DNA from: Kiritimatiellaceae bacterium
Lineage (GTDB): Bacteria; Verrucomicrobiota; Kiritimatiellia; Kiritimatiellales; Tichowtungiaceae
DNA length: 64,000 nt
Direction: 5' to 3'
Assembly: GCA_013141415.1 (NCBI GenBank)
Contig: JABFQY010000005.1
Location: 310,001 to 374,000 of the forward strand
Shown here: piece by piece, positions 30,325 to 49,750 of the stretch
Layout: each line of letters starts with the position of its first letter
How positions within the stretch are numbered: position 1 is the stretch's first letter
Notes under the pieces: model-generated
What the model was told of the DNA's origin: nothing
Databases searched by the model: none
Seen by the model: only the letters and a program-made list of their open reading frames with translations
Program-made: the position numbers and the translations under genes

Positions 30325-32943
30325 ATGAGACCGACGGTGAAGGGAAAATACTTGTTTAGAGGGCTGAGTCGGATGCTTTTGTTTGCGATAACTGCCGCAG
30401 TTTGCGGGAGATCGCCAGCAGAGGCCTTAAAATCTTCGGAATTACAAAGCGGGTCGCGGGATTACGGGGTGATCTTCTGGCGCGACGGAATCCGTGGAAC
30501 GGATGAGCAGGGTCGCCGTCTGCTCTGTATCCAGACCGGCTTTTACGGGGCGGAATTTGATGTGGAAAAGGCCTCGATGATTCGTCTGGGGGCCATTCGC
30601 AATGCGCCGGATTATGAAACGGCTGTTGCCGGATTCAATAAGCTGATGGACGCGGTTCCGGCGTCTTCATCGCAATTAACGATCGAGGCCGGCGGGCAGA
30701 TATATCATTGCTCGCGCGGCGCGGAACCTTGGATTGTTCGGAAAGAACCCGTTCAGAACTATTGGGTGATTGAGCAGGAGCCGGGGCGAAAGCTGCTGGA
30801 CGACCAGCGTACCGCCAACAAGACGACGAATATGCGGTTGAGAGAATATGGCCGTTACCGGCAGAATTTTGAAATCGACCGCCTTATTTTTAAAAACGAG
30901 AAGGGCGAACTGCTTCCGATCCGTGTTCGGCTTTTGGTCGAAAGCTGGCCCGATCTGCTGAAACTTTCGCTGGAAATCGTACCGAATGAGTCCCTGACGG
31001 GTGCCATGGCTCAGATTTCCATTGATGGCCTGAAGAAGGCTGAAGTCCGCACCGAAAAAGCGGAATGGAAAGCGGGGGTTCGTCAGACCGTTGCGCTGGT
31101 AATTCCCTTCACTGAGGCGATGGCTTCCGGCGGTACGGACGTGCAGGTGACCGACCGGATGACCGGCAAAAAGGTGCCTGTTTGCTATGACGCCGCTTTA
31201 GATGCATGGAAGGTTCAGCTGAACAACCATACTTATAAACCCGCTGTGCTGAATAATCTGGATCGATACGACATACACCTGAGCAATCCGACGGATCGCG
31301 AGCGCGTGTTCCGAATTCTTTTTGCGAATGAAATGGGCTGGCATGAGCGCAATTTGCCTCCGGCTGAGCAGGGACTGCGCGATTGTGCCGGCGTTATGGG
31401 CGCCCAGATGATTTTGAGAGATGAGAAGGGGAATCCTCTCGGGCTTCCGCTACAGGTTGCTCATAATTGGCCAACGATCAAACAAACCCGAAAAGCAACG
31501 CCGGATATGCAGCCGTGGCTGGATCTGGATACGTGGGATTATAACTCCTGGCTGCGCTACACAGCGGTCGGGCGTATTCCGGCGAAAAGTGAATGGGCCG
31601 GACGGGCTGATATGACCCACGCTCTGTGGGGCGGGGTGCCGCAGGCCAGTTATTATTTCCTCACCTTGATCGGCTGGGGCTATTACACAGATTGGGACGT
31701 GGCCATTCAGGGAAACTGGGGCGAGAGCGTTTGCTATGCGATCGGCGGCTATGCCGACTCTGACATCACCGATATGCGCCCGCTCTACGTCCGCTCCTAC
31801 GACTCTCATCGTGCGGTCCCGTTCGAATGGACCCCGAATCAGGGCGGCGGAAATTTCCTGCATTATAAAGTTAACGGAGAAAAACAGTATCTGGTGACCC
31901 GGCGCTATACGCCTGTTCCCGGCCCATGTCTTACCCGTACCGGGTTTTACGGTCTGACCGAAGACCGTAAAATTGAGTTTCGGATTACGGCTGAACATCC
32001 GCGAACCGACGACATCAACCGTTCCTATTACCGGTTGCAGTACAAAGTGCTTGAAGACACTGAATTCGATCAGCTTGCCTTTTTTCAGTACGGTAGCCCG
32101 ACCTACAATTTTTTCAACCCCAAGGCTGTGGCATGGGGCAGCCGGAATGGGCTGGAATTTGAGAAGGAGTATCCATTAGAAGGCCGGGTGGAATATGTTG
32201 AGCGCGGCATTCCGTTCCAAGGCGATGCGCCTTGGTGGTTTTCTATGCATCGTTCGGATAAAGAGGAAGGACGCGGCGATCAGGGGTCACTCGGTCAGGC
32301 CAGCCGGGGGCTGGTGGTTCGTTCATGGAATGCAGTGCTCGGCGGAGAGCGGGTTGAAAAACCTCACCTGTCTTTCATGGGAACGAACCACCGCTATCCC
32401 GGACTGCTGGCGGAAATCTCGCCGCCTCCGGAACTGAAGAGTTTGAAAAAAGGCGATTATGTCGATATGCAGATCGAAGTGTTCCTTGTTCCGAAAATCC
32501 CGGGAAGTTATCTGGGAACCAACAAAGCGCTCAAAGAATCGTTGCCGGAAACGGCTGACACATGGAAAGCGGCGTACCGGCAGGCCAAAGGCAACGATCT
32601 TCAGTTGAATGTGACGCACGGAACCTTGCAACGCGCGTTGCCGGTTGAAATTGCGGTCGGGGCCGACGGAGCAGCCATGGTGGAAGTAACCGGCGGCATG
32701 GCGTATGTTCCGTTTACTTTCACAAGAGCTCCATCAGCCTCTGCGCCATCGCTGGTTGAGTTGAGAAGCGGCGTTTCTATTCCGGTGGATCAGTCTGACC
32801 ACGGGAACGATTTCTGGCAGGCGGAGCGCGATTCTTCAACTGGGCTTTACCGGATTACCTATAACCTGAATCTCGACACGCCCAAAGATCAGCCGCAGAC
32901 GCGGCGGTTCCGCTTTGAATCCGAAACAAAAAAAGAGAAGTAA
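30325..32943 (+). CDS. Unrecognised large secreted protein, shared family with C-half of 42359 product
   Basis: 872 residues, signal peptide ending near AEALKS. No known family is recognised, but residues about 200-860 align with residues about 590-1390 of the 42359 product. Common blocks: GNPLGLPLQVAHNW / GNPVGIPVQLSKNW; GGVPQASYYFLTLIGW / GGIPAASHAQLCLVGY; GNWGESVCY / GCWNESLCY; DMRPL / DSRPL; FFQYGSPTYNF / FFQMGADSYNF; SRGLVVRSWNA / NRGFIIRSWKA; DHGNDFWQ / VHGNDFWQ. Conserved Glu, Trp, His and Asp suggest an all-beta catalytic domain acting on glycans, which is inference. ATG 30325 suits AAAGG at 30312-30316; the GTG at 30316 overlaps that site. It is the first gene of the 12-gene run. Confidence 0.75.
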   Translation: MRPTVKGKYLFRGLSRMLLFAITAAVCGRSPAEALKSSELQSGSRDYGVIFWRDGIRGTDEQGRRLLCIQTGFYGAEFDVEKASMIRLGAIRNAPDYETAVAGFNKLMDAVPASSSQLTIEAGGQIYHCSRGAEPWIVRKEPVQNYWVIEQEPGRKLLDDQRTANKTTNMRLREYGRYRQNFEIDRLIFKNEKGELLPIRVRLLVESWPDLLKLSLEIVPNESLTGAMAQISIDGLKKAEVRTEKAEWKAGVRQTVALVIPFTEAMASGGTDVQVTDRMTGKKVPVCYDAALDAWKVQLNNHTYKPAVLNNLDRYDIHLSNPTDRERVFRILFANEMGWHERNLPPAEQGLRDCAGVMGAQMILRDEKGNPLGLPLQVAHNWPTIKQTRKATPDMQPWLDLDTWDYNSWLRYTAVGRIPAKSEWAGRADMTHALWGGVPQASYYFLTLIGWGYYTDWDVAIQGNWGESVCYAIGGYADSDITDMRPLYVRSYDSHRAVPFEWTPNQGGGNFLHYKVNGEKQYLVTRRYTPVPGPCLTRTGFYGLTEDRKIEFRITAEHPRTDDINRSYYRLQYKVLEDTEFDQLAFFQYGSPTYNFFNPKAVAWGSRNGLEFEKEYPLEGRVEYVERGIPFQGDAPWWFSMHRSDKEEGRGDQGSLGQASRGLVVRSWNAVLGGERVEKPHLSFMGTNHRYPGLLAEISPPPELKSLKKGDYVDMQIEVFLVPKIPGSYLGTNKALKESLPETADTWKAAYRQAKGNDLQLNVTHGTLQRALPVEIAVGADGAAMVEVTGGMAYVPFTFTRAPSASAPSLVELRSGVSIPVDQSDHGNDFWQAERDSSTGLYRITYNLNLDTPKDQPQTRRFRFESETKKEK

Positions 32944-32982
32944 AATGAGTTTTTCTAAACAACATCACGGAAAGCGAACGAG

Positions 32983-33489
32983 ATGAAAAACGAACCATGT
33001 CCTCCTATTGATGAGTCAACAACCCCTCTCCGGGGAATGAACCGCCTCGCTGTGTCGCATTGGTTCGTCGCGTTATTCTGCGGGATTATTCTTTCGACCG
33101 GAATCGCTCGGGAAATAGTCCGGCAGGGCAGACCAAACCTTAATTGGGCCGCAGAAATCAAGGAGGCCGAACAGCAGGGCGCCCTCATGGCAAAAAGATC
33201 GCCGGAGCAAGTTTCGGTGGTCGGCGAAAAACTGAGTGCCTATAACAGAAACATCGCCAACTGCCGGTTGCTGGCAGAATTTTCTCAGGATGAACAAAAT
33301 AAGATCATCGACCCCGTTCTAAAGGAGCTCATCGGCAAATCGGCCAAATACGAGAAGAGTAAGTTTGCCTTCAAAGAGTACGGTACGGTAACCGCCTTAT
33401 TTATCGGGGCGTTCTCGGTGGTTCTCACGGCCTCTGTTTCATGGCTGCTTCTGTGGCCGTTGGTTCAGCTGGTCAGGGTCAAATTCTGA
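32983..33489 (+). CDS. Hypothetical membrane protein with two helices
   Basis: 168 residues, family not recognised. A membrane helix at about 25-44 (HWFVALFCGIILSTGIA) and another at about 138-160 (VTALFIGAFSVVLTASVSWL) enclose a charged, helix-rich segment of about 90 residues that should lie in the periplasm. Between the unknown enzyme and the GPH transporter it may be a transporter accessory or a leftover of the locus. The upstream site is poor (GGAAAG), but a 13-codon frame from ATG 32945 ends TGA across this start (ATGA), so translation could be coupled through it. Confidence 0.6.
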   Translation: MKNEPCPPIDESTTPLRGMNRLAVSHWFVALFCGIILSTGIAREIVRQGRPNLNWAAEIKEAEQQGALMAKRSPEQVSVVGEKLSAYNRNIANCRLLAEFSQDEQNKIIDPVLKELIGKSAKYEKSKFAFKEYGTVTALFIGAFSVVLTASVSWLLLWPLVQLVRVKF

Positions 33490-33523
33490 TTAATCGTCAT
33501 ATTATCAGTCAGCAAGGACATAC

Positions 33524-34912
33524 ATGAAAATATCTGTTCCCGGAAAAATAAAAGCGCGTCAAATGGTGGCGTTTGCCAATGGCAGATTCACCGAAGCGCT
33601 CATACAAAATACGATTCAGGTTCTGGCTTTGCCCATTTACAGCATCGGTCTTGGGGTAAACCCGGGGTTGGTCGGTTTGGCAATAAGTCTGCCCAGACTC
33701 TGGGAGGCTTTTACGGATCCGTATATAGGATACTTGTCTGACAACTTCCGAAGTAAGTATGGCAGGCGCAAGCCGTTCATGGTTGTCGGAGTTATTCTGG
33801 CCGGGTTGTTTTACGCGCTGCTCTGGTCGCCCCCGGCCGGTATGGGCAGCACAGTTGTTTTTCTATACTTCCTGATCATCTCGTTGGCGTTCTACACGGC
33901 GGCTGCGGTTTATCTGGTGCCGTATTATGCTCTGGGGAATGAACTGACCTCTGACCCGCAGCTGCGCGCCAAGCTGATGACTTTTTGCGCGGTTTTTATT
34001 TCCGTGGCCGGACTGATGACGCCATGGGCGTATAGTTTGAGTTTTATACCTTATTTCGGCGTTAACGAAATCGAGGGCGTGAGGGTCATCGGTATCATTG
34101 GAGGAACGCTGATCATCATCACAGGTATGCTGCCCTGCCTGATGTGCAAGGAACAGGTGACGGCCCAGACACAGCCGAAGTTCCATTTCATGTCGGCACT
34201 GAAAAATGCCTTCAAGACGCGGCCGTTCGTCATTCTTTGCAGCGTTTATATTTTGGGCCTTTTCGGCATCTTGCTGGTGAGCCCTCTGGCCTTCTATGTG
34301 GGAACCTATTACATGTTTGATGGCGATAAGGCGGCGATGTCAAAACTTTACGGCTGGCTGGGCTCAAGCTGGGCGCTGACGTCGATACTTTCATCTCCTT
34401 TTATTTACTGGCTCATAAAACGGTTTGAGAAAAAAGCTGTCCTGATCGCTTCACTGGTTCTTGTGCTGATCGGGCAGGCGAGTCAGTGGTGGCTGTTCAC
34501 ACCGAGCAATCCCTACCTCTCCATCATATCGTTTGTGCTGTCCTCGCCCGGAATTATATCGTTGCACATCATCATATACTCCTGGCTGGCGGATGTGTGC
34601 GATTACGACTACTTGCAAAGCGGACTGAGACGGGAAGGTCTCTTCAGCGCGGTCTATGGTCTGGTTGTAAAATCCGCATTCGCACTGGCGATCTTCTGCA
34701 GTGGAATCATCATTTCGATCGCAGGGGTGAACACCGGACAGGATGCGATCCAATCTCCTGAGGTGATTTTGCGGCTTCGTCTGCTGTTCTCCATCGTGCC
34801 GCCCGTTGTGATCGTGATCGCCATTGCAGTTGCGATTGGATATCCGCTGACCAAGAAACGAATGGCTGAGATTCAGCAGACTTTAGAGCAGAGAGAATCT
34901 GCTTCGGTTTAA
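33524..34912 (+). CDS. GPH-family glycoside:cation symporter (MelB-like)
   Basis: 462 residues, 12 membrane helices. The loop DPYIGYLSDNFRSKYGRRKP is the hallmark D-x4-G-x2-D...GRRKP motif of glycoside-pentoside-hexuronide symporters, and SWLADVCDYDYLQSGLRREG matches the conserved middle loop before helix 10. It imports glycosides with Na+ or H+. AAGGA lies 7 nt before the start. It is followed 37 nt later by a cytoplasmic propeller hydrolase likely to cleave what it imports. Confidence 0.92.
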   Translation: MKISVPGKIKARQMVAFANGRFTEALIQNTIQVLALPIYSIGLGVNPGLVGLAISLPRLWEAFTDPYIGYLSDNFRSKYGRRKPFMVVGVILAGLFYALLWSPPAGMGSTVVFLYFLIISLAFYTAAAVYLVPYYALGNELTSDPQLRAKLMTFCAVFISVAGLMTPWAYSLSFIPYFGVNEIEGVRVIGIIGGTLIIITGMLPCLMCKEQVTAQTQPKFHFMSALKNAFKTRPFVILCSVYILGLFGILLVSPLAFYVGTYYMFDGDKAAMSKLYGWLGSSWALTSILSSPFIYWLIKRFEKKAVLIASLVLVLIGQASQWWLFTPSNPYLSIISFVLSSPGIISLHIIIYSWLADVCDYDYLQSGLRREGLFSAVYGLVVKSAFALAIFCSGIIISIAGVNTGQDAIQSPEVILRLRLLFSIVPPVVIVIAIAVAIGYPLTKKRMAEIQQTLEQRESASV

Positions 34913-34949
34913 ATTCACAGCACAAAGAGAATGTTAATTAAGGATTAGA

Positions 34950-36059
34950 ATGCAAGAGACATGTGAAGAAGTTGTTTTTTCTGAGTTCTGTAAAAAGATT
35001 CAGCCCTGCGGGCGGATTCTTGAGCAGGATGGCTGGAATGTATGGTGCTGTTCGCCGATCTATGGTGAAGACGGCCGGGTGCATGTGTTCTATTCCCGCT
35101 GGCGCAACGATTTTAATTTCTGGGTGGCCGATTGCGAAATCGGGCACGCGGTGGCCGACCGGCCTGAAGGGCCTTATACGCATGTTGACACCGCCTTAAG
35201 TGGACGCGGCGGAACCGCTTGGGATTCGTGGAGCGTCCACAACCCGACCATTCATAAAGTCGGTGATCGGTATGCGTTGCTTTACATGGGAAGCGACGGT
35301 TCCGGACTGGATATCACGAAGGAAGATTTGCCCGGTATGGACTGGGACACGTATCAGCCGTACTTCATGCGGCTGGTGGAAAGTAAACGGATTGGGCTGG
35401 CCGTGTCCGACAGTCTCGATGGGCCCTGGACGAGGATCAGCGATGAAAAACCGCTGTTGGAGCCATCGCCCGAAACGGCTTGGGATGACATGCTCACCAC
35501 GAATCCGGCGTTACTGCAACTTCCCGACGGAACGTTCCGGCTTTATTACAAATCGATCGACTGGAAATCATGGAGAGAAATTTTCGGCATTCGCCGTTTC
35601 GGCACGGCATCAGCAAAGCGGCTTGAAGGGCCTTATGTGAAATATAAGGGCAATCCGGTTTTGACGTTTGAGCACCTCAAGCCGCGCTTCATCGCCAATG
35701 GTACTGTTGCGGTGTCCAAGGAGAAGGAATATGAATTTGAAACCGCGCAGGTGGAGGATGCTTACGTCTGGCAGGAAAATGGAACCTTTCGTATGATTTG
35801 CCGCGACATGGGGTTCTTCAACCACGAGTACGGCCTCTACCTCGAGTCAGACGACGGGCTGAATTGGACAGGGGCTCCTCAGGTGGCGTATCGCGATGCC
35901 GCATTTTACTTTGATGAAAAAATGCCGGGACTGGCGCGCGAGGGACGATTTGAGCGGCCTCAGGTGTTGATGAAAGACGGGCGTCCCGCCTATCTGTTCT
36001 GCGCCTGGCGCGGTGGAAAATATCGCACGTCGTCCGGTGTGGTGCTTAAAATTAAATGA
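34950..36059 (+). CDS. Intracellular five-bladed propeller glycosidase, GH43/GH117-like
   Basis: 369 residues without a signal peptide. It shows repeated propeller blades of the GH43/GH117 kind: GRVHVFYSRW near residue 48, WSVHNPTIHKVGDRYALLYMG near 93, RIGLAVSDSLDGPWTR, TTNPALLQLPDGTFRLYYKS, and a final FERPQVLMKDGRPAYLFCAW. The Asp and Glu residues that act as base and acid cannot be assigned with certainty. GH117 members release 3,6-anhydro-galactose from agar or carrageenan oligomers, and GH43 acts on arabinose or xylose; this protein could belong to either or to a neighbouring family. The preceding symporter suggests its substrate is imported. AAGGA precedes the start. Confidence 0.65.
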   Translation: MQETCEEVVFSEFCKKIQPCGRILEQDGWNVWCCSPIYGEDGRVHVFYSRWRNDFNFWVADCEIGHAVADRPEGPYTHVDTALSGRGGTAWDSWSVHNPTIHKVGDRYALLYMGSDGSGLDITKEDLPGMDWDTYQPYFMRLVESKRIGLAVSDSLDGPWTRISDEKPLLEPSPETAWDDMLTTNPALLQLPDGTFRLYYKSIDWKSWREIFGIRRFGTASAKRLEGPYVKYKGNPVLTFEHLKPRFIANGTVAVSKEKEYEFETAQVEDAYVWQENGTFRMICRDMGFFNHEYGLYLESDDGLNWTGAPQVAYRDAAFYFDEKMPGLAREGRFERPQVLMKDGRPAYLFCAWRGGKYRTSSGVVLKIK

Positions 36060-36077
36060 ACTAAGGTATAACACGCT

Positions 36078-37811
36078 ATGAAAAACAGATCCTTGAACTT
36101 CTGTCTGACGAGCCTGCCGACAATCGCGATGCTGGCGGGATCCGCCGTTGCCGCTGAACAGCCGAACATCGTATTCATCCTTACCGATGACCTGGGCTAT
36201 GGCAGCGTGGGTTGCTATGGTGCCGACAAATCGCTGGTGCGCACACCGAACATTGACCGGCTGGCCGCAGAGGGAATCCGCTTTACGGATGCTCAGGTTC
36301 CGGCAACGGTCTGTAGCGCTTCTCGATATAGTCTGTTGACGGGCCGTCACTGCTGGCGCACGCCGGAAAATCACGGTGTGCTTGGAGTCTATGCGCCGTT
36401 GCTGATCGAAACCAACCGGATGAACATGGCATCCCTGTTGAAACAGCAGGGCTATGCTACGGCGGCGATCGGTAAGTGGCATCAGGGGTACGGCCTTCCG
36501 CCGAGGACTGATTTCAGAGAACCTCTAGTGCCCGGGCCGTTACAGGTCGGGTTCGATTACCATTTCGGTGTCGCCGCCAATCATGGCGATGAAACCGGTG
36601 TTTATATTGAAAATGAAGGCGTCTGGGGCTTGCGATCCAAAACATTAACGCCGCGACCGGGCTGCTTTTACAGACCGTATACCTATCTCGGGTTGGATGC
36701 TCCGCAGCGCAAGGATGACGAAGCGATGGACTTCCTGACCGGCAAGGCGATTTCCTGGATGGAACAACAGCCCAAGGGGAAGCCGTTTTTTCTCTATTTC
36801 CCCATGCTGGCGGTGCATGAACCCATCACACCGTCAAAAGAATCCAGCGGAACCAGCGCCGCAGGTCCGTATGGTGATTTTATTCATGATATCGATCTTT
36901 CTGTCGGACGCATCCTGAAGGCGCTGGAAAAGCTTGGCGTATTGGATAATACACTGGTTATTTTCACATCCGACAATGGCGGATCGTATCCGGACTACGG
37001 CCCGAATAAAGTGATCCAGCAGGCGGCCGATGCCGGTTTGAAAATCAACGGCCCGCTTCGGTGGCGCAAGCTGAGTATTTTTGAAGGCGGCAGCCGCGTT
37101 CCGTTTGTCGCGCGCTGGCCCGGACGGATTCCGGCCGGTAAGGTCAGCGATGAAACAATCAATCTGATCGATATGACCGCCACCTTTGCAGAACTGACGG
37201 GTGTAGCGCTCGCACCGGATGCCGCTCAGGACAGCATTAGTGTGAAGGGGGCTCTACTGGGCGGCACGAGTAGCCGGACTGAAACCTCCGCAATGATCAC
37301 GCACAGCACAGACGGAAATTTTGCGCTCCGTCAGGGCCAGTGGAAATATATTGAGGGTAAACCGGCCTATCCATGGCCCGGGAAACTGGCCATGTTTGAA
37401 GAGGGTAAATCTTCCCAATTATACGACCTGCAGAATGATATTGGAGAAACAACAAACCTGCTTAGTCAGTATCCGGAAAAAGTGCGGGCAATGCAGGCGG
37501 AGATCGCCCGGCAGAGGGATCAGGGATTCAGTCGTCCCAGTGCTTTGCCATATGACCGCAACGATTCCCCTAAAATCGCGCCGACCGCCGCCGTTCCGGC
37601 GAAACCGACTGCAAAACTGGCCGCAAAACCGCCGCCTCGTGAGCAGACGTTTATGCAGCTGGATCGGGATGGTAGCGGAACATTGAGCCCGGATGAGTTT
37701 CTTCCGGCCTGTCCGCTCAAAGGAGATGCCGGCAAAGAAAGATTCCGGGATCTGGATCGCAATGGAGACGGATATCTGTCGAAAGACGAGTTCATTAATG
37801 CCGGGAAATGA
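36078..37811 (+). CDS. Secreted type I sulfatase (CSASR) fused to two EF hands
   Basis: 577 residues. Signal peptide to about 26. LTDDLGYGSVGCYG supplies metal ligands; C79-S-A-S-R followed by YSLLTGR is the formylglycine motif with Ala at the usual Pro position, still within the C-x-(P/A)-x-R consensus. IGKWHQG and TSDNGGSYPD complete the site. After about residue 485 comes a Pro/Ala/Lys-rich linker (PTAAVPAKPTAKLAAKPP) and two EF-hand loops: DRDGSGTLSPDE and DRNGDGYLSKDE, with all ligand positions filled. Calcium could stabilise the enzyme or link it to other EF-hand or repeat proteins. It is 18 nt after the propeller gene; TAAGG lies upstream. Confidence 0.93.
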   Translation: MKNRSLNFCLTSLPTIAMLAGSAVAAEQPNIVFILTDDLGYGSVGCYGADKSLVRTPNIDRLAAEGIRFTDAQVPATVCSASRYSLLTGRHCWRTPENHGVLGVYAPLLIETNRMNMASLLKQQGYATAAIGKWHQGYGLPPRTDFREPLVPGPLQVGFDYHFGVAANHGDETGVYIENEGVWGLRSKTLTPRPGCFYRPYTYLGLDAPQRKDDEAMDFLTGKAISWMEQQPKGKPFFLYFPMLAVHEPITPSKESSGTSAAGPYGDFIHDIDLSVGRILKALEKLGVLDNTLVIFTSDNGGSYPDYGPNKVIQQAADAGLKINGPLRWRKLSIFEGGSRVPFVARWPGRIPAGKVSDETINLIDMTATFAELTGVALAPDAAQDSISVKGALLGGTSSRTETSAMITHSTDGNFALRQGQWKYIEGKPAYPWPGKLAMFEEGKSSQLYDLQNDIGETTNLLSQYPEKVRAMQAEIARQRDQGFSRPSALPYDRNDSPKIAPTAAVPAKPTAKLAAKPPPREQTFMQLDRDGSGTLSPDEFLPACPLKGDAGKERFRDLDRNGDGYLSKDEFINAGK

Positions 37812-37858
37812 TTTATAAACCTGGACGAGAAAACGGAAGCCAGAGAAAGGATCAGGAA

Positions 37859-38923
37859 ATGAAAAAGTTAATCAGTATGCTGCTGCTATTCGGAATGGGG
37901 TCGTCAAGCTGGGCGGCGGTAGTGACGTACACACGTGTTGCGACAGGGAGTTGGACGAATCTGGCGCAATGGAAAGATAATGCCACGGGGTCATTTGTTT
38001 TCTCAACCGTTCTGCCGGGAGCGGCGGATCTTGTAGTTATAAATAATAATCTTAGCTTGACGGCGAATGCCGATGCGACCGTTGGAACTCTGCAAGTCGT
38101 GAATAATGCAACCGCCGGCACGTTGACTATGAACAGTGCAAATACGCTGAGCGCAGGTGTGCTTCAGGTCGGTGTTACTTCTACAGGGACTGGTATCGTG
38201 AATCAGACGGCGGGAACTATTTCGGCCATCACAACGACCGTAGGCCGTGCGACGGGAAATGTTGGCACCTATAATCTGTCCGGAGGGAAGCTGGATGTGA
38301 AGTCGACGCTGACAGTCAGTGCGACGGGGCTTGTGGATGTGAAAGGTGGCACACTAAGCCTTTCGGGAGGCGGTACTCACACTATCAGTGGAGTCGGTAC
38401 GATTAAGCTGTCCTCCGGTTTGTTTGAGATCGATGCGTCGATGGCAAACACCAACGTATTGAACTTCACGCCCGGCCTCTTTGACGTGAGCGGCGGAACT
38501 AATAATTTGGATGCTGTGGTGCGGGTGGGAAGTTTAACCGCCCAAACGGAATTCAGGGTGGTGGGGGACGCTGCCACGATCAATATTTCCAAGTTGCAAC
38601 AGGCGTCTTCTGTCACAACCAATGGTGTTTTTCATTTCATCTTCAATGCAACCGGCATCAGCACCATCAATTCCAGTATCTTCCAAACTATGGACGGGGC
38701 AAAGATTGTGGTGGACGGCTCGGCCTACACCGGCCCCGACGGGACGTTCACCCTGTTTGATTCGCCGAATCTGTCGAGCCTTGTAGATACGAACAACATC
38801 ACGATTACCGGGTTTGGCAGTAAAACTGTTTCTATTGTGCAGGATCAAAGCGCTGGCAAAGACTGGGTGCAGCTGGTGGTCGTTTCTCCGGTTAGATCCC
38901 TTTCGCTTGTCATTATCCAATAG
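37859..38923 (+). CDS. Secreted autotransporter-like beta-helical repeat protein (module family 1)
   Basis: 354 residues, signal peptide ending SSSWAA. The body is a series of Gly/Asn/Thr-rich coils: GSWTNLAQWKDNATGSFVF, STVLPGAADLVVINNN, LQVGVTSTGTGIVNQTAG, VGRATGNVGTYNLSGGKLDV, VVDGSAYTGPDGTFTLFDS. The whole length is paralogous to 55937 and, for about 300 residues, to the N-terminus of 49751. No beta-barrel, LPXTG or PEP-CTERM signal is present, so it is probably released or attached through a partner. AAAGGA 7 nt before 37859 sets the start. Between two sulfatase genes it may act as a scaffold or glycan-binding surface protein; that is inference. Confidence 0.75.
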   Translation: MKKLISMLLLFGMGSSSWAAVVTYTRVATGSWTNLAQWKDNATGSFVFSTVLPGAADLVVINNNLSLTANADATVGTLQVVNNATAGTLTMNSANTLSAGVLQVGVTSTGTGIVNQTAGTISAITTTVGRATGNVGTYNLSGGKLDVKSTLTVSATGLVDVKGGTLSLSGGGTHTISGVGTIKLSSGLFEIDASMANTNVLNFTPGLFDVSGGTNNLDAVVRVGSLTAQTEFRVVGDAATINISKLQQASSVTTNGVFHFIFNATGISTINSSIFQTMDGAKIVVDGSAYTGPDGTFTLFDSPNLSSLVDTNNITITGFGSKTVSIVQDQSAGKDWVQLVVVSPVRSLSLVIIQ

Positions 38924-38991
38924 TTTTCAAAGAGACCGTTTAGATGTCTGTGGCGCCAGTCGATGGCTGGCGCTGATTTGGGAGTCGAAGC

Positions 38992-40683
38992 GTGAAACGC
39001 AAAAGGTTACTCACAACAACAGTAGTGGGGTCAGCAGGGCTGGCGCTGCTGAATCCGCAGGTCGGCTATACGGCAGGAACTCCGGCGATCCGGCCCAATA
39101 TCATTGTCGTTGTGATGGATGATTTCGGTCTCGGTCAGTGCGAGGCGTACAGCCGCACGCTGGGGGCGGGCGATATGGATCCGCATCTGGTCGAACTGGT
39201 CACCGGCGGACATCGTAATTTTAAGCAGCACGATCCGTCCGAAGGGTTGCAAGCGTCACGTCAGGCTATGCCTTTTTTGACAGGGCTGGCCGATGCCGGC
39301 GTGCGTTTTAATAACGCCTACTCGGCCTCTTCGCTCTGTGCTCCGTCGCGGCAGGCGCTTCTTTCCAGCCGTTACCCGCAACGCTGGGGAGTGTACAACA
39401 ACGCCGCCGCCGATGAAACCGGCGTGCCGCTTGATCAGCGCTGTCTGCCCGAATTGCTCCACGAAGCCGGTTACGCTACCGCCGCTATTGGCAAATGGCA
39501 TGTGGCAAGGGTCGATGATTCGTTGCGCGACAAGGTACTTGATGCCGAAGGATGGAAGGGTTCGCGCCACTGGATGCAACTGCGCAAGGCCAGTCCCGCG
39601 ATGTACAAAAAAGCGATTGCTGAAACCGGGTATTGCGGCGCGAGCGTTTTCGCGCAGCATCCGTTGCGCCGGGGATTTGATTATTTCTTCGGCTACAACT
39701 GGTCCGGCGCCACCTATTACAAGGCCGATAACATCTGGGAAAATGACACATTTACAGGTGTGCGCCCCGACGGCGAGTACAACACCGAGCTGTTTACACA
39801 GAAGGCCGTTGATTTTCTTGATCGCACCCTGAAGGATGGAAAGCCTGCTTTTATTTATCTCGGTTATCACGCGGTGCACGGCTCGCTGAATTATAAGCCG
39901 CCGCTGAAATATCTGGAAAAATTTAACAGTAAACAGGAATGGGTGAACAGTTTCTACGGACACGTCAACGCCGTGGACGAAGGGATCCGGTCTATCTTTG
40001 AAAAGCTGAAGTCTTATGGGCAGGCGGACAACACCCTTTTCATTTTCACTACCGATAACGGAGCTTCCGGAAACTCGTACGGCGCGATTCTGCCGTTTAA
40101 CGCACCGAGTAAGGGAGCCAAAGGAGAGGCCTGGCAGGGCGGGCACCGGGTGCCGATGATTGCTTCGTGGCCTGGACGCATCAAAACCGGACGGGTAGAG
40201 GAAGGACTGGTTTCTCTGATGGATATTATGCCGACAGCAGTCGAGGCCTCCGGGGCCCCTGTTCCGGCGGGGCTGGATGGACGCAGTCTGCTGCCGTTGC
40301 TGAACGGACGCGAAAAAGGGCCGGTGCATGACACGCTCTTTTTCTTCGGCATCCATTCGACCATCTGGAGTTTCCCTGACGATCATTATAACGAAGGCGA
40401 CGAGCGGCAGGCGCCTCTTTTTGCCGCCGCACGGCAGGGCGACTGGCTCTACAAAGTGATCGGCTCCATTCCGCCCGGACTTTATCCGGACCTGCCGAAC
40501 GGTCAGCCGAAACAGGTGCTACTTTTTAACATCAAGAATGACCCCGGCGAAAAAAATAATGTAATTGCCGGGAATCCTGAAGTTGCCGAGGCGCTGCGGA
40601 AGAAGCTGAACGGCTGGACGGCTGAAACCAAACCGCCGCTTTGGGTACTCAAAGAAAAATGGGAAGAGATCGTGCAACCGTGA
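38992..40683 (+). CDS. Secreted type I sulfatase (CAPSR), GTG start
   Basis: 563 residues. The start is GTG at 38992 with GGGAG 7 nt upstream. A basic-hydrophobic leader (KRKRLL, then GSAGLALLNPQ) closely resembles that of the next sulfatase. VVVMDDFGLGQCEAY is the metal segment; a long insert of about 50 residues separates it from C116-A-P-S-R-QALLSSRYPQRWG. IGKWHVARV and TTDNGASGNSYG complete the active site. The insert and SSRYPQRWG resemble the arylsulfatase branch acting on galactose or fucose sulfates, but the substrate is not readable. No EF hand here, unlike its neighbours at 36078 and 40714. Confidence 0.92.
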   Translation: MKRKRLLTTTVVGSAGLALLNPQVGYTAGTPAIRPNIIVVVMDDFGLGQCEAYSRTLGAGDMDPHLVELVTGGHRNFKQHDPSEGLQASRQAMPFLTGLADAGVRFNNAYSASSLCAPSRQALLSSRYPQRWGVYNNAAADETGVPLDQRCLPELLHEAGYATAAIGKWHVARVDDSLRDKVLDAEGWKGSRHWMQLRKASPAMYKKAIAETGYCGASVFAQHPLRRGFDYFFGYNWSGATYYKADNIWENDTFTGVRPDGEYNTELFTQKAVDFLDRTLKDGKPAFIYLGYHAVHGSLNYKPPLKYLEKFNSKQEWVNSFYGHVNAVDEGIRSIFEKLKSYGQADNTLFIFTTDNGASGNSYGAILPFNAPSKGAKGEAWQGGHRVPMIASWPGRIKTGRVEEGLVSLMDIMPTAVEASGAPVPAGLDGRSLLPLLNGREKGPVHDTLFFFGIHSTIWSFPDDHYNEGDERQAPLFAAARQGDWLYKVIGSIPPGLYPDLPNGQPKQVLLFNIKNDPGEKNNVIAGNPEVAEALRKKLNGWTAETKPPLWVLKEKWEEIVQP

Positions 40684-40713
40684 ACAGCAATCTGTTCGTG
40701 CGAAGCGGAGAAA

Positions 40714-42336
40714 ATGATGAAACGAAATAATCTACTCACACCGGCGGCGATGGGCTCCGTAGGACTGGCATTGCTGAATCCGCAGACCGGCCTGACCGCG
40801 CCATCGGCTAAGCCGAATATTGTATTTATTTATGCCGATGACTGGGGGTGGGGCGATCTGTCCAGCCACGGGCATCCCTACGTGAAGACCCCGAACCTTG
40901 ACCGGTTGCGCGCCGAAGGAACCGACTTCACCCAGTTCAATGTGCTCAGTCCGGTTTGTTCCCCGAGCCGGGCGGCGGTGATGACGGGACACTATCCGGC
41001 ACGGTACAGCATTCACCAGCATTTTGCCTCTCCGGAGCTGAATCGCACAAACGGTATGCCGGACTGGCTGGATCCGCAGGCGGTTACAATTCCGAAACTG
41101 CTCAAACAGGCCGGATACAGCACGGCGCACTTCGGCAAATGGCATTTGACCGGCGGAGGGACTGCGGGGGCCCCGACGCCTGATGCCTACGGGTATGATG
41201 AATCGATTGTTTTCAATGGCGGTGCCGGCTGGCCTGCGGCGATTCGCGGGAACGAACACGCTACGGCAGACAATACGGCAAAGTTTATTCTGGCTAATAA
41301 AGACCGGCCGTTTTTTGTGAATGTCTGGATTCATGAAAGCCATACACCGCACACGCCGACGGCAGAATCGATGGCCGAATACAGCCATCTGGACAACCGG
41401 CAGCAGGTGTACGCCGCCGTGATTGCCGATGGCGACAAGGCGGTTGGTGCCGTGCTGGCTGCGATCAAGGCCGCCGGTGTAGAACAAAACACACTCGTTA
41501 TCTTTTCCAGCGACAACGGGCCGGAGTCTCAGGGGGAATCAGAGAGTCAGAAAAAACTGGGCAGCGGATACGGCACATACTACAGCGTTGGCCAGACCGG
41601 AGGTCTGCGCGGACATAAACGCAGTTTGTTCGAGGGTGGCGTTCGCGTGCCGTTCATTGTGCGCTGGCCCGGTAAAGTCCCGGCTGGAGTGGTTAATGAC
41701 AAAACCGTGGTCACCGCGGTTGATCTATTACCGACATTCTGTGCCATTGCGGGAGTCAGTCTGCCTGCCGGGTACACTCCGGACGGCGAGAATATTTTGC
41801 CGGCCCTGACGGGTCATACACCGGTGCGCAACAAGCCCGTCTTCTGGGAATGGAAAGGTCATGCTGGCGAACCGGACTGGTGGCCGCGTCTGGCGGTGCG
41901 CGACGGCGACTGGAAGCTCGTGATGACCTATGATGGCAGTCGTGTCGAATTACATCAGCTCATCAATGACCGCGCCGAGTCGAACGATGTATCGAAAGAG
42001 CACCCTGAAATCGTCAGCCGTCTGAGCAGACTGGCGCTCGACTGGAAAGCCACTTTGCCGGCGGCACCGGATCATGAGTGCATCAGTAAAGCGGCCGAGC
42101 CGGTTAACGTTGAGCAGAAAGCCCCTGCAGCGGGAAGCCCGGCTGCCGCTAAACAGACCGATCGTACCAAAGCCTTCGAGAGGATGGACAAGGATAAGAG
42201 TCAGGATCTGACCCTCGACGAGTACGTATCCGGACTGAAAGGGGAGGCTAATCTTGAGGCCCGCTTCAAAAACTTTGATAAGGATGGTGACAGCAAACTG
42301 ACGCGCAAAGAGTTCGTTACGCCGGGCGCGAAGTAA
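40714..42336 (+). CDS. Secreted type I sulfatase (CSPSR) fused to two EF hands
   Basis: 540 residues. The leader has GSVGLALLNPQTG, almost the same as the previous gene. YADDWGWGDLSSHG; C82-S-P-S-R-AAVMTGHYPARYSIHQHFAS; FGKWHLTGG; SSDNGPESQGES. HQHFASPE plus GMPDWLDP also occurs in the 58848 sulfatase, so these two belong to one subfamily. The C-terminus (from about 480) has EF loops DKDKSQDLTLDE and DKDGDSKLTRKE after an Ala/Pro-rich linker; loop 1 has Asp at its seventh position and lacks the central Gly, so it may bind weakly. Two ATGs (40714, 40717) follow GGAG. It is 30 nt after the preceding gene. Confidence 0.93.
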   Translation: MMKRNNLLTPAAMGSVGLALLNPQTGLTAPSAKPNIVFIYADDWGWGDLSSHGHPYVKTPNLDRLRAEGTDFTQFNVLSPVCSPSRAAVMTGHYPARYSIHQHFASPELNRTNGMPDWLDPQAVTIPKLLKQAGYSTAHFGKWHLTGGGTAGAPTPDAYGYDESIVFNGGAGWPAAIRGNEHATADNTAKFILANKDRPFFVNVWIHESHTPHTPTAESMAEYSHLDNRQQVYAAVIADGDKAVGAVLAAIKAAGVEQNTLVIFSSDNGPESQGESESQKKLGSGYGTYYSVGQTGGLRGHKRSLFEGGVRVPFIVRWPGKVPAGVVNDKTVVTAVDLLPTFCAIAGVSLPAGYTPDGENILPALTGHTPVRNKPVFWEWKGHAGEPDWWPRLAVRDGDWKLVMTYDGSRVELHQLINDRAESNDVSKEHPEIVSRLSRLALDWKATLPAAPDHECISKAAEPVNVEQKAPAAGSPAAAKQTDRTKAFERMDKDKSQDLTLDEYVSGLKGEANLEARFKNFDKDGDSKLTRKEFVTPGAK

Positions 42337-42358
42337 TTGCTGAGGAAACGCTCATGCG

Positions 42359-45300
42359 ATGAAAATCCACGTCAAAAAAACCGCTGTAATCACGCTGACC
42401 GTTGCGGCGTTCTTGCTCATGACGGAGCGGGCCGGGGCGGCCGACGGCACGTGGATGAATACGGTCAGCGGCGGTTTGTGGAGCGCGAGTAACAACTGGA
42501 GCGGCGGTGTGGTTGCCGACGGCTCCGCGTTCACGGCCGATTTCAGTACGATTGACATTACCGCAACCCATACCATTTATCTGGATAGCGCCCGCACGAT
42601 CGGCAAGTTGATTTTTGGCGACACGGCCACGGGGACAGCTGGCAGCTGGATTCTGGACAACAACGGCACGGCGGCAAATATTCTAACCCTCGCCGGAGGC
42701 ACCCCCGCGATTACCGTGAATGCATTGGGTGCGGGCAAGAGCGCAACGATCAGCGCGAAGCTTGCCGGTTCGGCAGGGTTTGTCAAAGACGGTTCCGGCA
42801 CACTGATCCTGACCACCAACAGCACCTGCACGGGGAACATAGTGATCGGCAACGGTGTGCTGAATCTCTCTTCGGGAAGCAGCAACTTTCCAACGGTGCT
42901 TGCCAGTACAAATATCACGGTCGAGAGCGGCGGCACGCTGGCGATCACCGGCGGGAATATGCTCGGCGCTACGATGGCCGATAACTGTCAGCTCAACGTG
43001 CAAAACGGCGGAACGCTTCAACTGGACAAGATTTTAATTGCCAAGTATGCGCAGTTCGACACGGGGGCTTTGGTTTCGGGCGCGAACCTTATGTATTTTA
43101 ACGCCACCAACTCTACGGTGAGTAATCTCCTGACCATCGGGTCGGTGGATTTCCCCGGCGCAGGTGTGATTCTGCGTCCGGATGGCGGGGCGGCTGACCC
43201 AACGCAGACGCTCAGGTTTGACGGCACCGGCGCCGGGGCCTCGATCAATACGCTTTATTTGCAAGCCGGCGTAAACACGGCATCGACCGGCATCCACAAT
43301 TACATCATGGACATCGCCGACAGTGCCGCCGCCGTCAATGATTTGGCGGTCACAACGCTGAATACGGCGGGCAACAATACGAACGGCGAGACGCGCATCA
43401 TAACCAAGCAAGGGGCGGGCACCCTGCGGGTCAGTAATGACGTGGGTTCCAGCCCCGGAAATTTCAATCTGAACGTCAACGAAGGGACGATGATCTTCGG
43501 CGGCACCGCGAACTTTAAGAGTATGGCCGTAGGCGCCTCCGGTACGCTCCAGTTTGACAATACGGATAGTTTCACTGTCGCCGGTGTTATCAGCGGAAGC
43601 GGGGCGGTGATCAAGTCGGGTGCCGGCATGCTGACGTTGACCGGTACAAATACGTTCACCGGTGCGACGATAATCAATAACGGCACGCTGACGGGCGTGA
43701 CCGGCGGCGGAAGCTCCAGCGGCGCTGTTTTTGTGGCGGCCACGTCCGGCAATTCGGCCACACTAAACATTGTGGTCACGGACACCGCGAAGCCGTGGAC
43801 GTGTGCGGGCCTGACCGTCACCAATGCTGGCGGCAGCTCCAGTTTAAATTTCGACTTCGGCACGCAGGTTCCCGACGGCACCGTAGCGCCGTTGAAGGTT
43901 ACTGGCGCCGCCACCTTTACCACGCCGCCGACTGTAACGGTTGAGCTGGGCGGCTCCGTCGGCCCCGTAGGTACACGATACCCGCTGATGACATGGGGCA
44001 GCGGAAACGTTGCGGCCCCTGCAACCGTGACGTTGATTAAGGACGGCATCATCGCCGCCGCGCATTTGACGGTATCGGGCAGCACGCTGTATCTGGTGAT
44101 GGACGCGCCACTCAACCACACGCTGCCTGCACGGGCCTTTGCCAACGCCAAAGATTACGGGTTTACGTGGTGGATCAATGATGTTCGCGTATCGTCCAAC
44201 GTGTGGCGGATCAAAACGAGTCGCTATGCCATGTCTTTCGCGTATCGCGACCTGAACCTCACCACCATTTTCCCTCTTCTGGTCTCTGTTCCTGAATCTG
44301 CCGCTTTGGTTGAAAGCGAGCTTCAGAGTTTTCCAGCATCCGTTCCTGTTTCCGGCAGTTCCTGTACGCTGATTTCTTCAGGTGTTACCAACACGCTGGC
44401 CGCCTGCTCGACGAACGCTGTCAATAACGCGCAATTCATCGAGGCGGGCAAGTTCTTCCAGCACCGCTGGGATAAAATAAAAACGACGGCCGGGCCGACC
44501 GGTCTCAACACGAACCAAAGCGGGGTGGATATCTGCGCATGGCCTGATCGCGTCTCGATGGTTTACCGTGTCGTGCCGACGAATTCCATCAGTTCCGGCG
44601 GTCTCGATTACCGGCTTAATTTGAGTGCTCTTTACAGTAACCGGGTCACGAGCGGATCAGCGCAGGGTTTAATGGCCGCCAACGGCAGCGGGTATATCGT
44701 TTTCAAAAGTGCCGGGAGCAGCTCAATCGCCGTGAATCCCACCAATGCCGTCATAACCGTTCATACCGATGGCGGCATCTGGAACGCAGGTGAAGAACGT
44801 TCTGTCGGGTTGATCATTTATCCCGTAACCAATGTGGCCGAAGCCATCGCAGAGACGGATGCCTTGGAAAATATTCCACTGGGGTTGACCGCTGATCAGA
44901 TCGCTCCCGTGATGGAACCCAATCTGGCTGGGTATGATGCGGATCGCGGCTGTTATGTTATCAATATAAAAAACTACACAGGGTGGGATGATAACCGGTT
45001 TGAGCGCACGGTGATTACTCTGACCAATGCGACCTCCAGCGACCAGGTGGTACGGCTGGATTTTGCCAAGACAAACGGGCTGTGGCCGGGGGCGGTCGGC
45101 ACCGTGGTAATCCTCCGGGATTTGAATGGGAACCCTGTTGGGATTCCTGTTCAGCTCTCAAAAAACTGGCATCATGCGACAGAAGACCGCTGGATCGGCC
45201 CTTGGTTTCACGGGCTGACCATGCTTACTGTGCCTGCGAACACGGCGCTCAGTTTCGAGGCCGATGTGGTGACACAGAACTATGGCGGCATTCCGGCGGC

Positions 45301-46984
45301 CAGCCACGCGCAGCTTTGTCTTGTGGGCTATGCAGGCAACAACCAGCAATGGGATGAAGCTGCTATCGGATGCTGGAACGAAAGCCTTTGCTATGACCCG
45401 AATAGAAATTCGATTGGCACGGATTCGCGTCCTCTGCACCTTCTCGGCATAAACGGGGAGACGAACCGGTGGACGGGTGGAAACTTCGGCGGATGTGACT
45501 TTTTAAATTACACCAATAGCGCCGGTGTCCGGCAATATCACAGCCGCATTCGCACCCAGTATAAGCATTACGGCCCGAACCTGACCGACGTTATCTTCGC
45601 CGGAAAAACCGCCGACTCCAGCATCGAGTTCACTTATAGCGCCGGTCTCTACCGATCAAGCGACTATACGCGAGGGCTTCATCGCATCCGGTATGATGTC
45701 ACGGCCAATACGGGCTTTAAGCGCATGGTATTTTTTCAGATGGGAGCCGACAGCTACAATTTCAATTCCGGTACCAACATGGCTTACGGCTACGGGAACC
45801 AGATCGCGCCTGTTCTCCAATGGACCAATATCAACCAGACCATACCCATTCAGTTGACCAATTCAACGCCTTGGTTTTCAACCATCGACGGCTTCACGGC
45901 CCAGAAAGTTGACGACGGCGTCACAAATTATTATCGCGCCGCCAACCGGGGATTCATCATTCGTTCATGGAAAGCCAGAATCAACGGTCAGGACAATGTG
46001 AAGCCGTATTTTGTCTCCAGCGGAAATTGCGTTAACCTCGTTCCGCCCGCTGGCGTTTCCAACCTGCTTGCCGGTGACTATGTGGAGGCCGAGATCGAGC
46101 GAGTTTACCTGCCAAAAAATGCGGGTGATTACTACGGAAGCGACGCCAATCTGGTCGCAGCCATGGCGAGTTATGACAACACGCATAGCCTGGTTGCGCG
46201 CGAAGCGATCGGCAACAATTTGGCGGTGACGGTTCAGGCGGGCACGCTGACACAGACCTACCCGCTGGCAATCGGAGTGACCAACGACTACGCGCAATTT
46301 TCGGTGACCGGTGGGATCGGGTATGTGCCGGTGACGTTTTCCGGATTGTCTGCGTATCAAAATCCGATGCTCGAAGAGCGGATCGGCACGGATTGGGCGG
46401 TGGTGGATCAGGCGGTTCACGGCAATGACTTCTGGCAGACCGACTATAACAGCACGAACCTCAGCTGGGAGATCACCTACAACCTTCCGCTGGGCAGCGC
46501 CGATTATCAGGATATTTCCGATCTTCGGACGAACGCCGTGACACGCACCTTCCGTTTCCGGAGTCTGAGTGATGTCACCACCGGACCCTTCGAGCTTTGG
46601 ATTAACTTGTTCTCCGGCATTCCCGTCGTTGATCGCACGGCCGCAGCCGATCCGGACGGCGACGGGCGGAACAATCTGGAAGAATTCATCGCCGGAACCG
46701 ATCCCAACGTGTTCGACTTTTCGGGATCCGATCTGAGCGGACTCACCATCACAAATGCTTCGGCAAAAATTCTCGTAAACTTTACCGCCCATGCCGCGAC
46801 CGGCAACGGCTACGCGGGGCTGACCCGCTGGTTCGATTTGCTCAACTCACTCAACCTTGCCGCCGGCCAGTGGTCGGGAGTGTCCGGTTACACCGGTATC
46901 GCCGGAGGAAACCAGGCGGTCACGCACACCAATGCGGCCGCTACGAACGCAGCTTTCTATAAACTTCAGATTCATCTCCAATGA
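42359..46984 (+). CDS. Giant secreted protein: beta-helical repeat module plus unrecognised enzyme-like domain
   Basis: 1541 residues. Signal peptide to about 28 (ERAGAADG). Residues 29 to about 560 are autotransporter-type repeats with PATR-like units (GTLILTTNSTCTGNIVIGNG, GAGMLTLTGTNTFTGATIINNG), paralogous to the 52537 protein along nearly 400 residues. Residues about 590-1390 belong to the unrecognised family also seen at 30325 (blocks GNPVGIPVQLSKNW, GCWNESLCYDP, NRGFIIRSWKA, VHGNDFWQ). The tail has DPDGDGRNNLEEFIAGTDP, a calcium-binding-type motif, and a final beta domain. There is no membrane anchor. GAGGAA lies 11 nt before the start. Probably an extracellular glycan-active enzyme carried on a beta-helix. 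Confidence 0.78.
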   Translation: MKIHVKKTAVITLTVAAFLLMTERAGAADGTWMNTVSGGLWSASNNWSGGVVADGSAFTADFSTIDITATHTIYLDSARTIGKLIFGDTATGTAGSWILDNNGTAANILTLAGGTPAITVNALGAGKSATISAKLAGSAGFVKDGSGTLILTTNSTCTGNIVIGNGVLNLSSGSSNFPTVLASTNITVESGGTLAITGGNMLGATMADNCQLNVQNGGTLQLDKILIAKYAQFDTGALVSGANLMYFNATNSTVSNLLTIGSVDFPGAGVILRPDGGAADPTQTLRFDGTGAGASINTLYLQAGVNTASTGIHNYIMDIADSAAAVNDLAVTTLNTAGNNTNGETRIITKQGAGTLRVSNDVGSSPGNFNLNVNEGTMIFGGTANFKSMAVGASGTLQFDNTDSFTVAGVISGSGAVIKSGAGMLTLTGTNTFTGATIINNGTLTGVTGGGSSSGAVFVAATSGNSATLNIVVTDTAKPWTCAGLTVTNAGGSSSLNFDFGTQVPDGTVAPLKVTGAATFTTPPTVTVELGGSVGPVGTRYPLMTWGSGNVAAPATVTLIKDGIIAAAHLTVSGSTLYLVMDAPLNHTLPARAFANAKDYGFTWWINDVRVSSNVWRIKTSRYAMSFAYRDLNLTTIFPLLVSVPESAALVESELQSFPASVPVSGSSCTLISSGVTNTLAACSTNAVNNAQFIEAGKFFQHRWDKIKTTAGPTGLNTNQSGVDICAWPDRVSMVYRVVPTNSISSGGLDYRLNLSALYSNRVTSGSAQGLMAANGSGYIVFKSAGSSSIAVNPTNAVITVHTDGGIWNAGEERSVGLIIYPVTNVAEAIAETDALENIPLGLTADQIAPVMEPNLAGYDADRGCYVINIKNYTGWDDNRFERTVITLTNATSSDQVVRLDFAKTNGLWPGAVGTVVILRDLNGNPVGIPVQLSKNWHHATEDRWIGPWFHGLTMLTVPANTALSFEADVVTQNYGGIPAASHAQLCLVGYAGNNQQWDEAAIGCWNESLCYDPNRNSIGTDSRPLHLLGINGETNRWTGGNFGGCDFLNYTNSAGVRQYHSRIRTQYKHYGPNLTDVIFAGKTADSSIEFTYSAGLYRSSDYTRGLHRIRYDVTANTGFKRMVFFQMGADSYNFNSGTNMAYGYGNQIAPVLQWTNINQTIPIQLTNSTPWFSTIDGFTAQKVDDGVTNYYRAANRGFIIRSWKARINGQDNVKPYFVSSGNCVNLVPPAGVSNLLAGDYVEAEIERVYLPKNAGDYYGSDANLVAAMASYDNTHSLVAREAIGNNLAVTVQAGTLTQTYPLAIGVTNDYAQFSVTGGIGYVPVTFSGLSAYQNPMLEERIGTDWAVVDQAVHGNDFWQTDYNSTNLSWEITYNLPLGSADYQDISDLRTNAVTRTFRFRSLSDVTTGPFELWINLFSGIPVVDRTAAADPDGDGRNNLEEFIAGTDPNVFDFSGSDLSGLTITNASAKILVNFTAHAATGNGYAGLTRWFDLLNSLNLAAGQWSGVSGYTGIAGGNQAVTHTNAAATNAAFYKLQIHLQ

Positions 46985-46997
46985 AAGGTCTCCAACG

Positions 46998-48206
46998 ATG
47001 CATATAAACAGGATCACGTTCGCCGCACTTTTGCTGATGCCGCTGGCCCGCTTGCAGGCAGATGAATTTTCCGCACAGCGCGAACAGGTTCTTACGCTGG
47101 GTAAACTCACCAACGCGCCCGCAATGCACATGGCCGATGGCTTTGCATCAACGGCTGATTTGAAGGCGATTTATTATGATGCGCTGGATTGGAAAGGTTC
47201 GCCGACCAAAGTATTTGCCTGGTTGGGTCTTCCGGAAAACCGCTCCGGCAAAGTGCCCGGCATTGTGCTGGTGCATGGCGGCGGCGGAACGGCTTACAAG
47301 GCCTGGGTGACGAACTGGACGGCCCGCGGTTTTGCCGCCATCAGCATTGCGGTCGAAGGTCAGACCGATGTGCTGGTCAGCGCGCCGAACAACTGGCAGC
47401 AAACCGCATGGCCCGGCCCGAAGCGCATCGGCATCTATGCAGACTCATCTGAACCGTTGGCCGAACAGTGGATGTATCATGCCGTCGCGGATACCGTGCT
47501 GGCCAACTCACTGCTGCGCTCCCTGCCGGAAGTGGATGCGGATAAAGTCGGTGTGATGGGCGTTTCCTGGGGCGGTGTCATCACCAGTACCGCTATGGGC
47601 ATAGACGACCGCTTTGCCTTCGCCATTCCGACGTATGGCTGCGGACATCTGTTCGATTCGGATAACCAATACGGACGGGCGTTGGGCAACAACCATCTCT
47701 ACAAGCAGGTTTGGGATCCAATGGTGCGCATGTCGCGGGCGAAAATGCCGGCGCTTTGGCTCTCGTGGCCGACCGATAAACATTTTCCGCTCGATTGTCA
47801 GGCCGCAACGTATCAGGCGGCTTCCGGCCCGCACATGGTGTCTCTCATTCCCGGGATGAACCATTCGCATCCGTCGGCCTGGAATCCGCCAGACAGTTAT
47901 GCCTTCGCTGAAAGCATCGTTCGGGACGGCCAGCCGTGGTGCCGCCAGATCAGCTCGCAGATTTCTCAGGGGGTTGTTCGCGTTGAGTTTTATTCCGCCC
48001 GTACGCTGGATCGTCCGGTGCTGGTTTCAACGACGAATACCGGTTTTACAGGTTCCCGGAAATGGGTTGAGTCGCCTGCCATGATTGAACAGAACGGCAG
48101 CGTCTGGTCTGTTACCGCAACCAATCCTGCCGGAACCACCGCATGGTTTGTCAACGTGCATAATGGTAAACTCACGGTGAGTTCCGATTATCAGACAACC
48201 AAATAG
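46998..48206 (+). CDS. Secreted alpha/beta hydrolase (acetyl xylan esterase/dienelactone hydrolase-like)
   Basis: 402 residues, signal peptide to about 21 (RLQADEF). IVLVHGGGGTAYKAWV gives the oxyanion region; nucleophile Ser190 lies in GVSWGGV; SWPTDKHFPLD and PGMNHSHPSAW supply the Asp and His regions. The fold is of the acetyl-esterase/prolyl-oligopeptidase-like kind, with an extra C-terminal beta domain (residues about 315-402). AAAGG precedes ATG 46998; the frame is open further back into the previous gene but without a site. It lies 13 nt after the giant protein gene and 14 nt before an SGNH esterase, so two deacylases are co-expressed. Confidence 0.82.
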   Translation: MHINRITFAALLLMPLARLQADEFSAQREQVLTLGKLTNAPAMHMADGFASTADLKAIYYDALDWKGSPTKVFAWLGLPENRSGKVPGIVLVHGGGGTAYKAWVTNWTARGFAAISIAVEGQTDVLVSAPNNWQQTAWPGPKRIGIYADSSEPLAEQWMYHAVADTVLANSLLRSLPEVDADKVGVMGVSWGGVITSTAMGIDDRFAFAIPTYGCGHLFDSDNQYGRALGNNHLYKQVWDPMVRMSRAKMPALWLSWPTDKHFPLDCQAATYQAASGPHMVSLIPGMNHSHPSAWNPPDSYAFAESIVRDGQPWCRQISSQISQGVVRVEFYSARTLDRPVLVSTTNTGFTGSRKWVESPAMIEQNGSVWSVTATNPAGTTAWFVNVHNGKLTVSSDYQTTK

Positions 48207-49702: not shown

Positions 49703-49750
49703 AGACATCGCAGCCGATCTTTGGCCGTCCAAGGACTGGAAAGGAAAAAA

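Follow-up and report, generated by a model that had tools for sequence, protein, structure and literature searches.

A large secreted domain family encoded twice in a polysaccharide gene run of a Kiritimatiellaceae bacterium: predicted supersandwich fold and putative action on sulfated fucose-rich glycans

The window, i.e. the whole 64,000-nucleotide stretch of Kiritimatiellaceae DNA analysed here, contains two intact open reading frames whose large products share an uncharacterised domain (table 1). From the first of these genes onward, the genes are co-directional and intergenic gaps are mostly shorter than 70 bp, just as an operon would be arranged; the in-frame ATG at 30325, used as the start in an original prediction made from the letters alone, lies inside the first reading frame. 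BLASTP aligns the two products with 31% identity over 662 amino acids (251 bits, E = 3e-73), which at the level of sequence is far above chance, and the conserved blocks on which the original prediction was built are present, so its central claim of one domain occurring twice in one operon holds. The similarity extends upstream of these blocks to a DYG...W motif at residue 49 of member 1 and about residue 599 of member 2, and multiple alignments place the limits in member 1 between DYG...W..G at about residue 49 and HGNDFWQ...TYNL...R.FRF at about residue 869. The domain thus comprises about 820 residues in member 1 and about 800 in member 2, with a shared stretch of about 650–820, and the genome encodes these two copies only. 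Secretion, as originally proposed, is supported. In member 2, PATR repeats lie ahead of the domain, and the tail of this protein, DPDGDGRNNLEEFIAGTDP, is plausibly a TSP3 calcium-type repeat by the resemblance of its DPDGDG motif, although its score lies under the curated cut-off.

Table 1. Features of the window discussed in the text (coordinates in nucleotides of the window).
Feature	Coordinates	Strand	Remarks
GH174-like endo-1,3-fucanase, N-terminal beta repeats	26073..28286	+	PDB 8jd7 E 1.8e-41, 9k1g E 8.5e-28
Family member 1, P0001, 875 aa	30316..32943	+	signal peptide and family domain, residues ~49-869; derived clade
N-W-P codons 384-386, member 1	31465..31473	+	SKNWH motif of relatives; AHNWP here, K383 and H386 lost
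E470 codon, WGES motif, member 1	31723..31725	+	E 108/108
D486-M-R488 codons, D.RPL motif, member 1	31771..31779	+	D 108/108, R 109/109
Codons 566-569, member 1	32011..32022	+	D566 110/110, R569 107/110
168-aa membrane protein between family gene and MFS transporter	32983..33489	+	similar-sized ORF at same place in sister genome
MFS_2 sugar transporter	33524..34912	+	
GH43/GH117-like glycosidase	34950..36059	+	
Sulfatase with EF-hand tail	36078..37811	+	
Sulfatase	38992..40683	+	
Sulfatase with EF-hand tail	40714..42336	+	
Family member 2, P0002, 1541 aa	42359..46984	+	nearly all conserved residues kept
PATR (autotransporter-type beta-strand repeats), N-terminal, member 2	42446..44131	+	E 1.2e-10; limits approximate
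Family domain of member 2, residues ~599-1402	44153..46564	+	pairwise and multiple alignment
TSP3-like DPDGDG tail, member 2	46649..46708	+	E 0.05, under cut-off
AXE1-type esterase	46857..48206	+	
SASA carbohydrate esterase	48221..49702	+	
GH141 enzyme with LamG domain	61171..63981	-	BT_1002, 5mqp, E 1.9e-66

Member 2 lies between sulfatase and esterase genes, as had been stated for the family, but member 1 heads the gene run near a sugar transporter gene. Upstream of the run, and separated from it by a divergent SSF transporter gene, lies a gene whose product (26073–28286) has no Pfam match but is a homologue of endo-1,3-fucanases. Its D–E pair (401/402) and a later Glu align with D121, E122 and E220 of 8jd7 (our own count), and we call it GH174-like because these residues correspond, with an offset of two, to D119, E120 and E218 reported for the GH174 enzyme Fun174A (PMC11943901). 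In a sister genome, a relative of this protein (E = 1e-159) is likewise encoded upstream of a family gene, which is followed, in the same order as here, by genes for a 173-amino-acid protein, an MFS transporter, a GH43-like enzyme and a sulfatase. At the far end of the window lies the GH141 gene, a family that includes endo-fucanases (PMC12786026), and an L-fucose isomerase gene follows about 2.5 kb past the window end. Neither GH29 nor GH95 (PF14498) was found in the genome, which is 95.5% complete, so that the release of fucose would be unexplained unless the GH141 enzyme, the GH43/GH117-like enzyme or the family itself carries it out. The GH43/GH117-like product has no obvious signal peptide and shows weak PDB similarity to 3,6-anhydro-alpha-L-galactosidase. 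Also in this polysaccharide region, 12101–13237 encodes a regulator composed of a periplasmic-binding-protein-like sensor and an AraC-type DNA-binding domain, and 49721–52327 an 868-amino-acid protein with N-terminal beta repeats, a TSP3-like stretch and a central domain that looks GH99/GH71-like by eye and has no Pfam or PDB-sequence match. Promoter and terminator scans gave signals near chance level.

No match to the domain of either protein was obtained in Pfam, NCBIfam or PDB sequences, and a profile of 55 family sequences found nothing among PDB sequences either, which confirms by sequence search that no known family is recognisable. Among other members the only consistent match was to LamG/ConA-like domains, present in 11 of the 55. 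EF-Tu and one other match, with E-values of 0.05 and above, were rejected as chance; GNAT/aminoglycoside acetyltransferase matches came from a single member and were set aside, as were TafC matches in ten members, a number close to that of the LamG-bearing members (compared by count only). Searches of viral structures and of plasmids yielded no trace of the family, and narrow literature searches no description of it. As judged by these sources and by Pfam, NCBIfam and PDB sequences the family is undescribed, but a CAZy/dbCAN number may exist.

With a single peptide pattern, a scan of genome contigs picked up 263 relatives; 80 of them were retained. The family has hundreds of members, chiefly in Verrucomicrobiota and Planctomycetota, with others in Lentisphaerota, Hydrogenedentota and Armatimonadota and, sporadically, in a few Bacteroidota. 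It is present in 22 of 289 genomes of its own phylum, and the one positive among 148 Bacteroidota genomes was the Flammeovirga query genome itself, so that we rejected the idea of a general Bacteroidota feature. Flammeovirga aprica (genome G289, the source of locus L075) has about four family copies, one of which (contig C414, 23779–26196) carries in-frame stop codons and is possibly a pseudogene; nearby, this contig also encodes a GH29 enzyme.

Across about 108 sequences, W385, W460, E470, D486, R488, G511, D566, G608, W641 and D714 (numbering of member 1) never vary, and W505, R569, R669 and R755 are nearly invariant; E470, D486, R488 and D566 correspond to E1008, D1022, R1024 and D1102 of member 2. 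The conserved Glu, Asp and Trp of the original prediction are therefore real, but its His, in HGNDFWQ, is found in only 79 of 99 sequences. The Glu of (G/N)ES, which had been singled out, is indeed invariant, but no more so than D486, R488, D566 and several Trp. In the SKNWH motif of relatives, K is kept in 102, W in 108 and H in 101 of 108 sequences.

Five residues that are each present in at least 94% of the other 52 sequences, namely K383, H386, Q448, N457 and D513, are missing from member 1 and from its relatives in the sister genome; member 2 retains all five. An alignment artefact was rejected as the explanation, because the pairwise alignment is unambiguous at these positions and the sister-genome copies carry the same changes. 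The derived clade that unites member 1 with these relatives has a long stem (2.0 changes per column), and member 2 falls into a separate clade with Bacteroidota and Planctomycetota members. Because the clades differ, a recent duplication was rejected; the two copies are therefore old paralogues, which probably differ in specificity or activity. Thus, going by its missing near-invariant polar residues, member 1 need not act as member 2 does. It is unlikely, however, to be a decaying leftover, because the derived type is the only one found in the sister genome.

In other genomes, the strongest contextual evidence comes from fusions. The family domain sits C-terminal to a sulfatase in two genomes and to a SASA esterase in one further genome, and in a fourth it follows an AXE1-type hydrolase and an Alginate_lyase domain within a single protein of 1738 amino acids (locus L149, 2590–7806); most members, however, stand alone. 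Among 74 genes adjacent to family genes, 11 encode sulfatases and five GH29 alpha-L-fucosidases. From genome-wide counts, taking about 850 genes per Mb, we calculate an expectation of about 1.4 and 0.13, respectively, with the proviso that related loci are not fully independent. Similarly, 30 long loci contain 22 sulfatase genes against an expected 4.3–9.6. Some loci of relatives contain no obvious glycan genes. The association with GH29 is clearest in Bacteroidota, where all four loci have such a gene, either adjoining the family gene (L106, L101) or elsewhere in the cluster (L075, L058). These loci also encode sulfatases (L075, L058), an FGE-like protein (L106), an HTCS regulator (L075), SusC-like receptors (L075, L106, L101) and SusD (L101). 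Fusions and neighbours thus agree with the glycan-degradation setting first proposed, as does a fold that resembles those of carbohydrate enzymes, and they point beyond it to fucose-rich sulfated glycans as the likely substrate.

AlphaFold2 models built from a 55-row alignment (full protein, pLDDT 85.8, pTM 0.89; residues 305–875, pLDDT 86.2, pTM 0.90) are nearly all beta, with short helices. In the predicted architecture, an N-terminal beta domain, which a LamG lectin domain interrupts in some relatives, is followed by a galactose-mutarotase-like supersandwich, and the C-terminal domain is Ig-like. In Foldseek searches of the PDB, E. coli OpgD/MdoD/OpgG (GH186) came top for both models (E = 2.0e-5 for the full protein; E = 1.9e-8 with a probability of 1.00 for residues 305–875), at low TM-scores of 0.28–0.36 (0.28–0.32 for residues 305–875). 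The periplasmic domain of YidC followed (TM by target about 0.5), along with sandwich domains of GH36, GH38, GH101, PL17 and PL26 and aldose epimerases, all of a fold class which we take to be the galactose-mutarotase-like supersandwich. According to the models, the novelty of the family therefore resides in its sequence and not in its fold, which is already known.

Taken together, these data incline us, with modest confidence, to see a secreted catalytic family that acts on glycans and whose most likely role is the extracellular cleavage of a sulfated polysaccharide rich in fucose. The GH174-like neighbour and other endo-fucanases would open the chains, sulfatases and esterases would desulfate and deacetylate the same glycan, and the family domain would cut one linkage in it. 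By analogy with GH186, candidate active-site residues on the supersandwich would be E470, D486-x-R488, D566 and R569, with W385, W460, W505 and W641. A more specific version is possible, albeit doubtful: the members would cleave fucans and constitute a glycoside hydrolase family of their own, distantly allied in fold to GH186 and with the supersandwich itself being catalytic. Such a family would supply a cleavage step where, as in this organism, a fucan locus and L-fucose isomerase are present and both GH29 and GH95 are absent.

The fucose link is suggested by the neighbours, and context and fusions suit a binding module equally well; moreover, supersandwich folds also occur without catalysis, e.g. 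in the YidC periplasmic domain matched here. The main alternative is that the family is non-catalytic and serves in glycan binding or surface display: its supersandwich and Ig domains, along with LamG where relatives have it, would keep the polysaccharide within reach of sulfatases, esterases and lyases that are fused to it or encoded nearby. Like binding modules, the domain is fused to varied catalytic domains, and the LamG domains, the PATR carrier of member 2 and the persistence of the gene in the clade of member 1 despite its five losses would all fit. About 800 amino acids are too many for a typical binding module, however, most members are not fused to anything, charged residues (E, D, R and D) are too strictly kept, and the top fold match is a catalytic family, so that we regard a purely binding role as unlikely.

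A polysaccharide lyase, built like known lyases with the supersandwich as its C-terminal half, could be envisaged from the PL17 and PL26 fold matches and from the member placed behind an Alginate_lyase domain. In PL17-type enzymes, however, the lyase active site is in a helical toroid, which most members lack, and a lyase would require uronic acid, which is absent from pure fucan chains though present in glucuronofucans. With a hydrolase family as the top fold match as well, this reading appears improbable. Most improbable of all seems another reaction on the glycan, such as ester removal or epimerization, or action on a sulfated glycan other than a fucose-containing one: aldose epimerases do share the fold and recognizable glycan genes are not part of every locus, but family sequences matched no esterase or epimerase family, and the neighbourhood already supplies esterases and sulfatases.

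If the family is indeed catalytic and directed at fucose-rich polysaccharides, this would matter because fucoidans and sulfated fucans are degraded slowly and are relevant to carbon storage, and to our knowledge only a handful of enzyme families are known that cut their backbones. For the missing steps, a direct candidate would be a widespread, unnamed family like this one, whose genes recur beside those of sulfatases and fucosidases. It would also add another case, beside GH186, of a supersandwich used for catalysis.

In fold, the family resembles GH186 (the MdoG family, with the beta-1,2-glucanase/transglycosylase OpgD/OpgG) without being a member of it. Common to both are export and, as far as a top fold match with low TM-scores indicates, probably a supersandwich followed by an Ig-like domain, with action on a polysaccharide being a prediction in the case of the family, which in contrast to GH186 has an extra N-terminal beta domain and occurs in fucose-glycan loci. 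PF04349 (GH186/MdoG) gave no match at E-values up to 1, and a profile–profile link was rejected, since hhalign of the 55-row family profile against 30 MdoG sequences gave a probability below 1%. In EcOpgD of GH186, D388 is the general acid, with a D300/R359 relay (PMC10514313). The family segment FFQ.G..YN...A.G...GL may, by eye, correspond to the segment of OpgG that carries the general-acid Asp, with an invariant Gly instead of this Asp.

GH36, GH38, GH101, PL17, PL26, aldose epimerases and the YidC periplasmic domain share the fold class with the family. Most enzymes of this group have their catalytic site in a separate barrel or toroid, and the sandwich is accessory to it. Such a separate barrel or toroid is absent from nearly all family members; specifically, the N-terminal alpha/alpha toroid of PL-type enzymes was not found in the all-beta models and is seen in a single member, as a fused domain. 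Searches of Pfam, NCBIfam and PDB sequences revealed no homology of the family to GH107, GH168, GH174, GH187, GH141, GH29 or GH95. The fucan and fucoidan depolymerases among these, i.e. GH107, GH168, GH174, GH187 and GH141, nevertheless likely belong to the same pathway and substrate class as the family, whose two genes share the window with a GH174-like and a GH141 gene.
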